64,000 bases of DNA. It comes from Corynebacterium yudongzhengii. GTDB lineage: Bacteria > Actinomycetota > Actinomycetes > Mycobacteriales > Mycobacteriaceae. Every line of letters starts with the position of its first letter. Positions within the stretch are counted from its first letter, which is position 1. The notes beneath the pieces were generated by a model, which was not told the origin of the DNA, did not search any database, and saw only the letters and a list, made by a program, of their open reading frames with translations. The stretch lies in the NCBI RefSeq assembly GCF_003065405.1, contig NZ_CP026947.1:1488001-1552000 (forward strand), read 5' to 3'. The position numbers were made by a program, and so were the translations under genes. Positions 60,836-63,377 of the stretch are shown piece after piece.

Positions 60836-60997
60836 ATGAACCGCGCTACAGAAATCGCTATCGCTGGCCTCGCTCTGATTGGCCTAGTGGTCAACTACAT
60901 TGTGGGCGGACCGAACTGGGTGGCGCTGATCCTCATCACCATCGCCGGTGCGCTGCTCGTGATAGGCGATCCGGCGAACCGCCCGGTTGAGCGCTAG
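60836..60997 (+). CDS. Small membrane protein, stop codon at IS junction
   Basis: 53 residues (MNRATEIAIAGLALIGLVVN ...) with two hydrophobic segments (about 6-24 and 28-43) and a strong GAAAGGAG ribosome site. Family unknown. Its TAG stop is made by the target TA plus the first G of the IS element; before insertion it would have been TAA, so the protein is unchanged. Confidence 0.75.
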   Translation: MNRATEIAIAGLALIGLVVNYIVGGPNWVALILITIAGALLVIGDPANRPVER

Positions 60998-61013
60998 GGC
61001 GTGTCTGACAATT
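60997..61013. repeat. IS left inverted end
   Basis: 17-bp terminal inverted repeat, differing from the right end at one base. Confidence 0.9.
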
Positions 61014-61922
61014 TCTTCAGCCAGGTCATGACGGCGATAGCCATCACGCCGACCCGGTAGACAACCGCGAGCTTGTCGTACCGGGTTGCCACACCCCGCC
61101 ACTGCTTGAGGTTGCCGAAAACCGTTCCACCACGTTGCAGCCCTTGTAGGACTGCGCATCGAACGTCGGTAGACGCCCACCCATCGAGCCTTTCCGCTTC
61201 CGGGCGGCGATCACGTCCTTTTTCTCCGGGATCGTCGCCGTGATCTTGTGCTCGCGCAGATACCTGCGCACAGCCTTCGATGCATACGCCCTATCCGCGC
61301 GCAGTTCATCGGGCCGGGTGCGCGGTCGGCCCACCATCCCGGGCACCCGCAGGCGTTTCAACAACGGGATCAGCACCGGGCAGTCACCGCGGTGGCCCGC
61401 AGTAACGATCATGGTCAGGGGCATGCCGTGGCCGTCGACCAGGGCGTGGACCTTGGTAGACAGACCACCCCGTGATCGGCCGACCGCGTGATCAGGCGGC
61501 TCGGCCAGCAGGTTGTTGTAATTCGACAAAGCCCCCTGTGACCCGCGTGATGTTCGTGGCGTGCTGATGGGCCCGGGCGATCGTCAAAGTCCACCGACAC
61601 CGACCAGTCGATCAGGTCTTCCGTATCGGCCTGTCTAAGAAGTCGCTGAAAGATCACGTCCCAGGTGTCCGTCCTTGGCCATCCGGTTGTGCCAGGTGTA
61701 GACCGTCTGCCAGGACCCGAAGCAGGCGGGCAGGTCACACCGCGCGATCCCTGCCCGAAGGCAGTAGAGGATGGCCTCGAGCATCTGCCGGGGATCGGAG
61801 AACGGTCGGCCTTTTCTCCCCGTGCGACGGGGCAGAAGCTCTTCGACCATCTCCCACTGGGCATCACTCAACATGTGAAAACGCGACACGGGAGCCAGGG
61901 TCCCATGCCACGCTTCCCTCAA
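61004..61922 (-). pseudogene. Frameshifted IS5-family transposase
   Basis: Conceptual reading: an N-terminal part in one frame to about 61670 (MLSDAQWEMVEELLPRRTGR ... TVYTWHNRMAKDG), a middle part in a second frame (WDVIFQRLLRQADTEDLIDW), a short HQHAT piece in a third frame (about 61550-61590), then SNYNNLLAEPPDHAVGRSR to KGCNVVERF in the first frame again, and finally the frame FGNLKQWRGVATRYDKLAVV after a lost base near 61117-61122. Domains expected of an IS5/DUF4096-type DDE transposase are all recognisable, but four frame breaks make it inactive unless programmed shifts or sequence errors are involved. Confidence 0.85.
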
Positions 61923-61937
61923 TTATCAGACACGCCC
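61921..61937. repeat. IS right inverted end
   Basis: 17-bp terminal inverted repeat, followed by TA as possible target duplication. Confidence 0.9.
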
Positions 61938-62329
61938 TAACACGTTGCGAGGGCGGTCTGCGCTTGGGTTCGATACGCGCACACCGTTGTGGAGCGGGAC
62001 TTCCTTAACTGACCCGGCCTCCCTACGACTGCCCGAATTCGCCCACATCTGGCGATTGTCTAGAGAATCGGCTCATTGTTTGGGCTGGTCCTTGTCCGAT
62101 TGCGGCGCGGACTCTGAAGCGGGAGCAGGGCTCGTTTCTTCAAGCCGCTTGTCCGATGCGGTTTGTTGGTAGCAGCCATCCGGCCCCGCCGCCACGCCCT
62201 AGGCCGCAGTGGCGCAGACTTCCCAACTCTCGGCAGCCCCCGAGCGCGGCTGGGGTGTCAAGGCGGCTCGGTGCTCGCCGCACGGCACAATCGGCAGCGG
62301 GGACGATCACAGTGCCAGCCGGCGGAGGC

Positions 62330-62349
62330 TTTTACGCACGTGCGTAAAA
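62330..62349. repeat. Palindrome P1 (perfect 20 bp)
   Basis: TTTTACGCACGTGCGTAAAA equals its own reverse complement. The 16-bp core TTACGCACGTGCGTAA is exact in P1, P2, P5, P6 and P8. Confidence 0.95.
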
Positions 62350-62416
62350 ATCAGAGGCCTCGGGTGACGGTGGGGTTCGGGTACCTATGAATTCCCCGAG
62401 ATCCATCAATTTCCGA

Positions 62417-62432
62417 TTACGCACGTGCGTAA
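62417..62432. repeat. Palindrome P2
   Basis: Exact core TTACGCACGTGCGTAA, preceded by TTTCCGA, followed by AAGCCCGCTCC. Confidence 0.95.
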
Positions 62433-62543
62433 AAGCCCGCTCCGCACTATGCGGCGGCAGAGTGAGTCTGGGAGCTGTTTCGGCTCGCAGGGTCCGGCCC
62501 TGTGAGGGCAAAGGGCGAACGACTCCGACAGCCGAGCTTGGTT

Positions 62544-62559
62544 TTATGCACGTTCGTAA
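62544..62559. repeat. Palindrome P3 (degenerate)
   Basis: TTATGCACGTTCGTAA, two changes from the core, one in each arm. Confidence 0.8.
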
Positions 62560-62629
62560 AAATTAGAAGCCTCAAGGGGACAGTGTGGCTCGTGTACCCA
62601 TGAATTCTCCGGGATCCATTGATTTCCGA

Positions 62630-62645
62630 TTACGCATGTGTGTAA
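62630..62645. repeat. Palindrome P4 (degenerate)
   Basis: TTACGCATGTGTGTAA, two changes from the core. Confidence 0.8.
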
Positions 62646-62974
62646 AAACCCGCTCCGCACTATGCGGCAGCAGAGGGATTCTGGGGCTCTCTTCACCTCC
62701 GCCAGTAGACCAAGACGGCGGTCCCGCAATTCTTTTCAGGCTGATCACCAAGAGGCCAGGAACATTCCCGTAAGAACGCTCAGACGTGTGGGAGATTTCG
62801 CGGTGCCTGACAGCGTGGAATGAGATGTATCGCCGGAGCCTCTGCATCAGGGATGCGTCGGAGTTAGGGATGCTACCGCGTAGCCGGAACCCTACTACCA
62901 ACTCCGCGGACACGCGCTACCACCTACCCCGGATCGGAAAGACAACCCTAAAGCAACGGTCGCCGCTGAAGCCC

Positions 62975-62990
62975 CTATGCCGCGGCATAG
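62975..62990. repeat. Second-family palindrome, perfect 16 bp
   Basis: CTATGCCGCGGCATAG is fully self-complementary. It lies 13 bp before P5. Related but degenerate copies are at 63069-63083 (CTATGCCGTCGCATA), about 63174-63187 and about 63260-63273. Confidence 0.9.
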
Positions 62991-63002
62991 TTCGCAACAC
63001 CA

Positions 63003-63018
63003 TTACGCACGTGCGTAA
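63003..63018. repeat. Palindrome P5
   Basis: Exact core TTACGCACGTGCGTAA. Confidence 0.95.
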
Positions 63019-63107
63019 ACGGGGCGTACCCCAATCCCCGAACGGCATTCGCGATGAAGTCCCGACCACTATGCCGTCGCATACTCTTACTGGAAACGTT
63101 TCGCATT

Positions 63108-63123
63108 TTACGCACGTGCGTAA
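63108..63123. repeat. Palindrome P6
   Basis: Exact core; the left context ACTGGAAACG..CGCATT recurs before P8. Confidence 0.95.
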
Positions 63124-63199
63124 TGACGACACCCGAAATTAAGGCGCGAGAAAAGCTCCTAGGATCTAACCCACCATGCCGCGACACAGTCTCCAGAGA

Positions 63200-63215
63200 T
63201 TACGCACGTCCGCAA
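63200..63215. repeat. Palindrome P7 (degenerate)
   Basis: TTACGCACGTCCGCAA, right arm changed at two bases. Confidence 0.8.
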
Positions 63216-63297
63216 AAATCCTCGACACGCCCCAAAGCCACGGTGGTCACCGAAGCCCCCACGCCGTCACATACTCTTGCTGGAAACCCTTTGCATT

Positions 63298-63313
63298 TTA
63301 CGCACGTGCGTAA
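63298..63313. repeat. Palindrome P8
   Basis: Exact core, preceded by GCTGGAAACCCTTTGCATT, much like the sequence before P6. Confidence 0.95.
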
Positions 63314-63330
63314 AACACAGCCGGCCCCTC

Positions 63331-63344
63331 TATGCCATGGCATA
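63331..63344. repeat. Second-family palindrome, last copy
   Basis: TATGCCATGGCATA, a perfect 14-bp palindrome with a different centre (AT instead of GC). Confidence 0.9.
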
Positions 63345-63377
63345 ATCCAGCGCCCCCCGACCCGCACCAAGCACGTA

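Follow-up and report, generated by a model that had tools for sequence, protein, structure and literature searches.

The window considered here is a 64,000-nucleotide stretch of the Corynebacterium yudongzhengii chromosome (contig NZ_CP026947.1, positions 1,488,001 to 1,552,000), and near its right-hand end lies an array of short palindromes of two kinds, which we call PalA and PalB. PalA (TTACGCACGTGCGTAA) matches the window eight times, five times exactly and three times with two mismatches, just as a first-pass annotation of this DNA had claimed; shuffled sequence gives a mean of 0.12 matches and a maximum of 2, and none of 100 shuffles reaches eight. The annotation's extension of the first copy to a 20-bp palindrome holds as well. 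PalB (CTATGCnnnnGCATAG), a second palindrome that alternates with PalA, has five window sites with no more than one mismatch. The features of the array are as follows.

62151..62937, + strand: dispersed noncoding element, the copy in the window, carrying PalA copies 1 to 4; ends imperfectly inverted
62332..62347, no strand: PalA copy 1, exact; with its flanks the 20-bp palindrome TTTTACGCACGTGCGTAAAA
62348..62416, + strand: spacer S1, 69 nt, from PalA 1 to 2; repeated spacer of the dispersed element
62417..62432, no strand: PalA copy 2, exact
62447..62462, no strand: PalB, one arm mismatch
62544..62559, no strand: PalA copy 3, two mismatches
62560..62629, + strand: second copy of spacer S1, from PalA 3 to 4; repeated spacer of the dispersed element
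62630..62645, no strand: PalA copy 4, two mismatches
62660..62675, no strand: PalB, one arm mismatch
62971..63350, no strand: latter half of the array, in which PalA alternates with PalB, outside the two end sequences of the dispersed element
62975..62990, no strand: PalB, exact, CTATGCCGCGGCATAG
63003..63018, no strand: PalA copy 5, exact
63069..63084, no strand: PalB, one arm mismatch
63108..63123, no strand: PalA copy 6, exact
63174..63189, no strand: degenerate PalB-like site, three arm mismatches
63200..63215, no strand: PalA copy 7, two mismatches
63298..63313, no strand: PalA copy 8, exact
63330..63345, no strand: PalB, one arm mismatch, CTATGCCATGGCATAA

PalA copies 1-2 and 3-4 are duplicates of one unit, with 85-86 bp from start to start. 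Among 31 such 85/86-bp pair units pairwise identity is 0.94-0.96 in PalA versus 0.68 in the spacer, a contrast that is overstated because the units were chosen for having PalA within two mismatches. A codon-usage gene call places no gene within the array, in agreement with the earlier description of it as gene-free, and at Rfam gathering thresholds no family falls over it (one tRNA is found elsewhere in the window). RNA covariation analysis gives no clear compensatory pairs in PalA or PalB, and PalA does not have the T-run form of a terminator. The suggestion that these are sites for a protein dimer rather than RNA hairpins is supported.

Distribution over the chromosome and among relatives

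The 2,511,302-base C. yudongzhengii chromosome has 91 exact copies of PalA, or 152 if up to two mismatches are allowed, distributed over its whole length, and TATGCCnnGGCATA occurs 61 times. With a cut-off of 700 bp, the stretches that we fetched contain 56 clusters of PalA and/or PalB, and a predicted gene is overlapped by four of the 56. Arrays lie between convergent genes in 17 cases, codirectional genes in 20 and divergent genes in 4, with 3 unclassified (17 versus 4, p 0.007). The sites are clustered and palindromic and have a parS-like centre, as might be expected of the centromere or iteron set of a single integrated plasmid or phage, which the first-pass annotation had entertained; however, 91 exact copies chromosome-wide largely refute this idea, and the viral collection, with four contigs carrying a single PalA site each (two of them with the same flanks), lends it no help, so that we give it next to no credence. 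A viral origin was rejected on the finding of those four single-site contigs. On the two viral contigs with shared flanks (L046 and L049) the one PalA stands with other ACGT-centred palindromes upstream of a gene, and these are perhaps operators of an unrelated regulator.

The annotation had also proposed a genome-wide search, with many copies both over the chromosome and in unrelated genera counting against a local array. The wide chromosomal scatter is there; spread to unrelated genera was not seen, with exact PalA in none of 40 genomes of the same order, and 60 genomes of the same genus lack it too. The paired PalA pattern has no match in a wider collection of genome contigs, from which C. 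yudongzhengii itself and its near relatives may be missing, and 80 named actinobacterial loci (1.51 Mb) contain no repeated cluster of 14-bp palindromes. A 164-nt unit searched in 241 other genomes of the genus finds two, G119 and G135. G119 has one array, with exact PalA and PalB; G135 has PalB and no PalA, and its arrays (L055-L057) mix PalB with GTGCGCACGTGCGCAC (or CTGCGCACGTGCGCAC), GTATGCnnnnGCATAC, GTCCACACGTGTGGAC and GTCCAGACGTCTGGAC. Lone TATGCCnnGGCATA sites elsewhere (15 genomes, one site each) fit chance, and we therefore rejected a conserved single-gene operator; six of these loci were inspected, and the two with confident gene calls (L067 and L070) have no neighbour in common.

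An IS5-like insertion sequence (IS) adjoins the window array (60994-61939), and the annotation had read it, together with an SdpI-type gene, as the mark of an accessory island. These neighbours are not what defines the array, but the same kind of IS does adjoin the sole G119 array (L051 1921-2865), and next after that IS comes an XRE-type helix-turn-helix gene (L059/L051).

Palindromes at the ends of DUF222/HNH genes

Two PalB arrays of C. yudongzhengii lie upstream of DUF222/HNH (13E12-type) genes, and three related genes on this chromosome have PalA 33-39 bp past the stop codon. A protein search with a DUF222/HNH protein gave six strong loci in C. yudongzhengii and five in G135, and at all 11 one end of the gene is marked by an array palindrome or, at L154, by a two-mismatch relative. 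The paralogs of G135, five in number, correspond one to one with the five palindrome types of the G135 arrays, with the reservations that L154 has only that two-mismatch relative and that the palindrome of L160 overlaps the final codons of the open frame. None of eight weaker HNH matches, among them the three in G119, has a flanking array palindrome. The G119 array therefore stands in a genome with no strong homolog, and may have arrived by transfer together with the adjoining IS. At 317-319 kb of the C. yudongzhengii chromosome (L060) a PalB array lies upstream of a DUF222/HNH paralog even though the reading frame of the paralog is broken by internal stops; one of these PalB sites can be extended to a palindrome of 26 bp.

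We then counted flanking palindromes at 79 loci: the 11 strong paralogs, 28 from the genus search and 40 hand-picked among the matches listed (L153/L156 and L201/L202 encode identical proteins). A palindrome was required to span at least 16 nt, with perfect 6-bp arms and at least 7 pairs, in a start window of -320 to +60 or a stop window of -100 to +150, both of which were fixed after earlier looks at the same flanks. The start window holds one at 28 of 79 loci, the stop window at 28, both at 9 and either at 47; of 254 control windows, each 380 bp long and taken from the same loci, 21 hold one, as do 6 to 7 percent of shuffles. Omission of the 11 loci that gave rise to the idea leaves 37 of 68, and the 40 loci fetched last give 19. 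A matching palindrome is present at both gene ends in 10 of the 79, versus 25 of 1560 permuted pairings. Genus-wide, GTGCGCAGCTGCGCAC, the sole palindrome counted in this way and picked since it had been seen adjoining genes, is present in 18 of 242 genomes; 14 have at least two copies (up to 24), and 13 of these 14 have a homolog, versus none of the four single-copy genomes.

Among three of the proteins scanned with Pfam (P0001, P0002 and P0003), HNH is above cut-off in each and DUF222 is above it in P0002 and below it in the other two; the homologs P0005 and P0012 (48 and 38 percent identical to P0001) are listed with PF02720. The same scan gave no ParB (CTP-binding/CTPase) domain. A DNA-binding-like domain starts at or near the N-terminus, and two models predict it to be ParB/Noc-like. 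ParB R173 touches guanine 1 of parS in the account available from PMC7383237; where the counterpart of this residue is basic in our set, position 1 of the half-site is G in 16 of 16 cases, versus 0 of 19. Recognition-helix residues 41 and 42 covary with half-site bases 1 and 3. This set has 39 rows, eight of 47 half-sites having been dropped (L156 and L186 as near-duplicates, and L198, L221, L225, L227, L233 and L239), with L154 and L208 assigned by hand; a rerun on all 47 under unfavourable settings gave three exceptions (L154, L208 and L221). The likeness to ParB-parS and to Noc and its binding site (NBS) thus lies in the predicted fold and in a palindromic site whose outer specificity would be read where the recognition helix begins, and the kinship with parS that had been proposed from the shared centre is supported to the extent that a reader with such a domain is likely. 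The differences are an HNH nuclease, no ParB CTPase domain found and many site types per genome; in addition, the 16-bp site here puts position 1 at 8 bp from the dyad, versus 7 bp in the 14-bp parS.

At the level of sequence, then, the gene association, the one-to-one matching in G135 and the covariation of helix residues with bases are established, and from them we infer binding by a dimer: PalA and PalB are very probably cognate sites of DUF222/HNH proteins encoded elsewhere on the chromosome. Two other readings were weighed. The proteins might be Noc/ParB-type nucleoid or chromosome-maintenance factors, with the arrays as docking sites and the nuclease secondary. The predicted ParB/Noc-like domain and sites over the whole chromosome would fit such a host role, as would HNH residues that are conserved yet have no known activity. 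We nevertheless think it improbable, since the distribution of homologs is patchy (at E 1e-20 they are present in 68 of the 242 genomes of the genus), palindrome sequences and numbers vary among species and even between sister genomes, and Pfam gave no CTP-binding ParB domain. The palindromes might instead serve ordinary genes as autoregulatory operators or as bidirectional terminators. Some do stand 117-139 bp ahead of the gene starts that we used, and convergent settings outnumber divergent ones as noted; however, many are at the 3' end of a DUF222/HNH gene or well away from it, an array of as many as about 15 sites does not look like an operator, and PalA, as noted above, is not of T-run form, which makes this reading very improbable.

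A proposed route of spread and its known counterparts

We propose that the N-terminal ParB/Noc-like domain would, as a dimer, read a 16-bp palindrome (6-bp arms and a 4-bp centre) and that the C-terminal HNH nuclease would nick or cut at or near it. Repair from another copy would then duplicate the palindrome together with the DNA around it, at times including the gene, and in this way palindromes and genes would spread and arrays would grow. Each paralog tends to be flanked, on one side or on both, by the palindrome proper to it, and intergenic arrays gather further copies as a mosaic of those that belong to the resident paralogs; in C. yudongzhengii many copies are also carried by the dispersed noncoding element. 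We assign roughly 0.7 to this reading as a whole, in which the palindromes are cognate sites of HNH nucleases with a predicted ParB fold and spread much as REP sequences do, by an unrelated enzyme. The spreading step is what we infer, along with cutting and repair, and whether the nuclease drives it we regard as evenly balanced. The recombination target that the annotation had listed as its third option comes close to this proposal.

Signs of movement fit spread by breaking and copying, short of proof. An 1839-bp block common to two C. yudongzhengii copies of the gene differs at a single position, and identity ends at the outer edge of PalA; the opposite end of the block is not at a palindrome. 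The sister genomes G262 and G029 differ in a palindrome that G262 has at 219478 and G029 lacks, and in the copy number of a 186-bp unit of palindrome and spacer, three (one of them with a mismatch) versus two. Among mycobacterial REP13E12 loci, 87 gene conversion events are given in the portions of a preprint available (PMC13061034), which counts 5 genes in its text and 10 of 14 in its table. The likeness to homing endonucleases, which cut an empty allele and are copied into it, is circumstantial, resting on the one duplication that ends at PalA.

The palindromes could alternatively have spread passively, as cargo of a noncoding element resembling a miniature inverted-repeat transposable element (MITE) and moved by an unrelated transposase, the DUF222/HNH link being incidental. 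The window element recurs at L039 and about 30 further C. yudongzhengii loci; it is short and its ends (TGTCAGATGCGG... and ...CCGAATCGGCA) are imperfectly inverted, as in MITEs, and the L039 copy, the only one with a clear repeat, stands between 5-bp GGATT direct repeats. However, the element is absent from the latter half of the window array, from L060 and L061 and from the G135 arrays with other palindromes, the palindromes proper to each paralog and the residue-base covariation are left unaccounted for, and no transposase was identified for the element (a PF09299 search for a Tn7/Mu-type transposase that would act on its ends had no match, nor did its controls, and is thus uninformative). 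Passive spread is therefore unlikely; a MITE accounts for a carrier in C. yudongzhengii, and not for the palindromes themselves or for other species.

In behaviour the closest known system is that of repetitive extragenic palindromic (REP) sequences and bacterial interspersed mosaic elements (BIMEs) with their REP-associated tyrosine transposases (RAYTs; Nunvar 2010, PMC2817692). As far as the available text of that paper goes, both are extragenic, species-specific palindromes in mosaic arrays, with a dedicated gene flanked by its own palindromes, covariation of enzyme and palindrome, and palindrome abundance that tracks gene presence; the flanking is found here with a different enzyme, at either end in 47 of 79 loci and at both ends in 10. 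Membership fails because no Y1 (HUH) transposase was found: PF01797 has no match in the C. yudongzhengii genome, versus 5 of 14 control genomes, and a RAYT origin was rejected for this reason. In addition, the protein here is an HNH protein with a predicted ParB/Noc-like DNA-binding domain, and its sites are perfect 16-bp dyads without the orientation of REP sequences.

We found no paper in the open-access PubMed Central (PMC) literature that links DUF222 with flanking palindromes. The portions seen of the DIVE paper (PMC10589994) group REP13E12 with HNH endonuclease and DUF222, and the terms DUF222, HNH and palindrom co-occur there in separate contexts; an apparent co-mention of DUF222 and ParB in PMC10123090 is, in the passage concerned, DUF2220. 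Those of PMC13061034 describe REP13E12 loci as hotspots of gene conversion and as without defined function, and flanking palindromes are not described in the available parts of either PMC10589994 or PMC13061034.

These findings suggest that palindrome-bearing nuclease genes are a previously unrecognised kind of self-spreading repeat. More tentatively, and with odds slightly short of even, DUF222/HNH proteins may be a large actinobacterial class of selfish nucleases in which the helix dictates a 16-bp palindrome, HNH breaks the DNA and repair copies palindromes and genes. If so, repetitive extragenic palindromes would have a second enzymatic origin, evolved independently of the first and with a code from amino acid to base that can be read, and the 13E12 family, long without an explanation, would gain a function. 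Given a cognate site for each protein, DUF222/HNH biochemistry becomes directly testable with genes that are common in the genus, and the covariation of residues 41 and 42 with bases 1 and 3 offers a natural series on how specificity changes in ParB-type readers. The system would also be a case of a ParB/Noc-like reader combined with a nuclease, and repetitive extragenic palindromes would have a route of origin that does not involve RAYTs.
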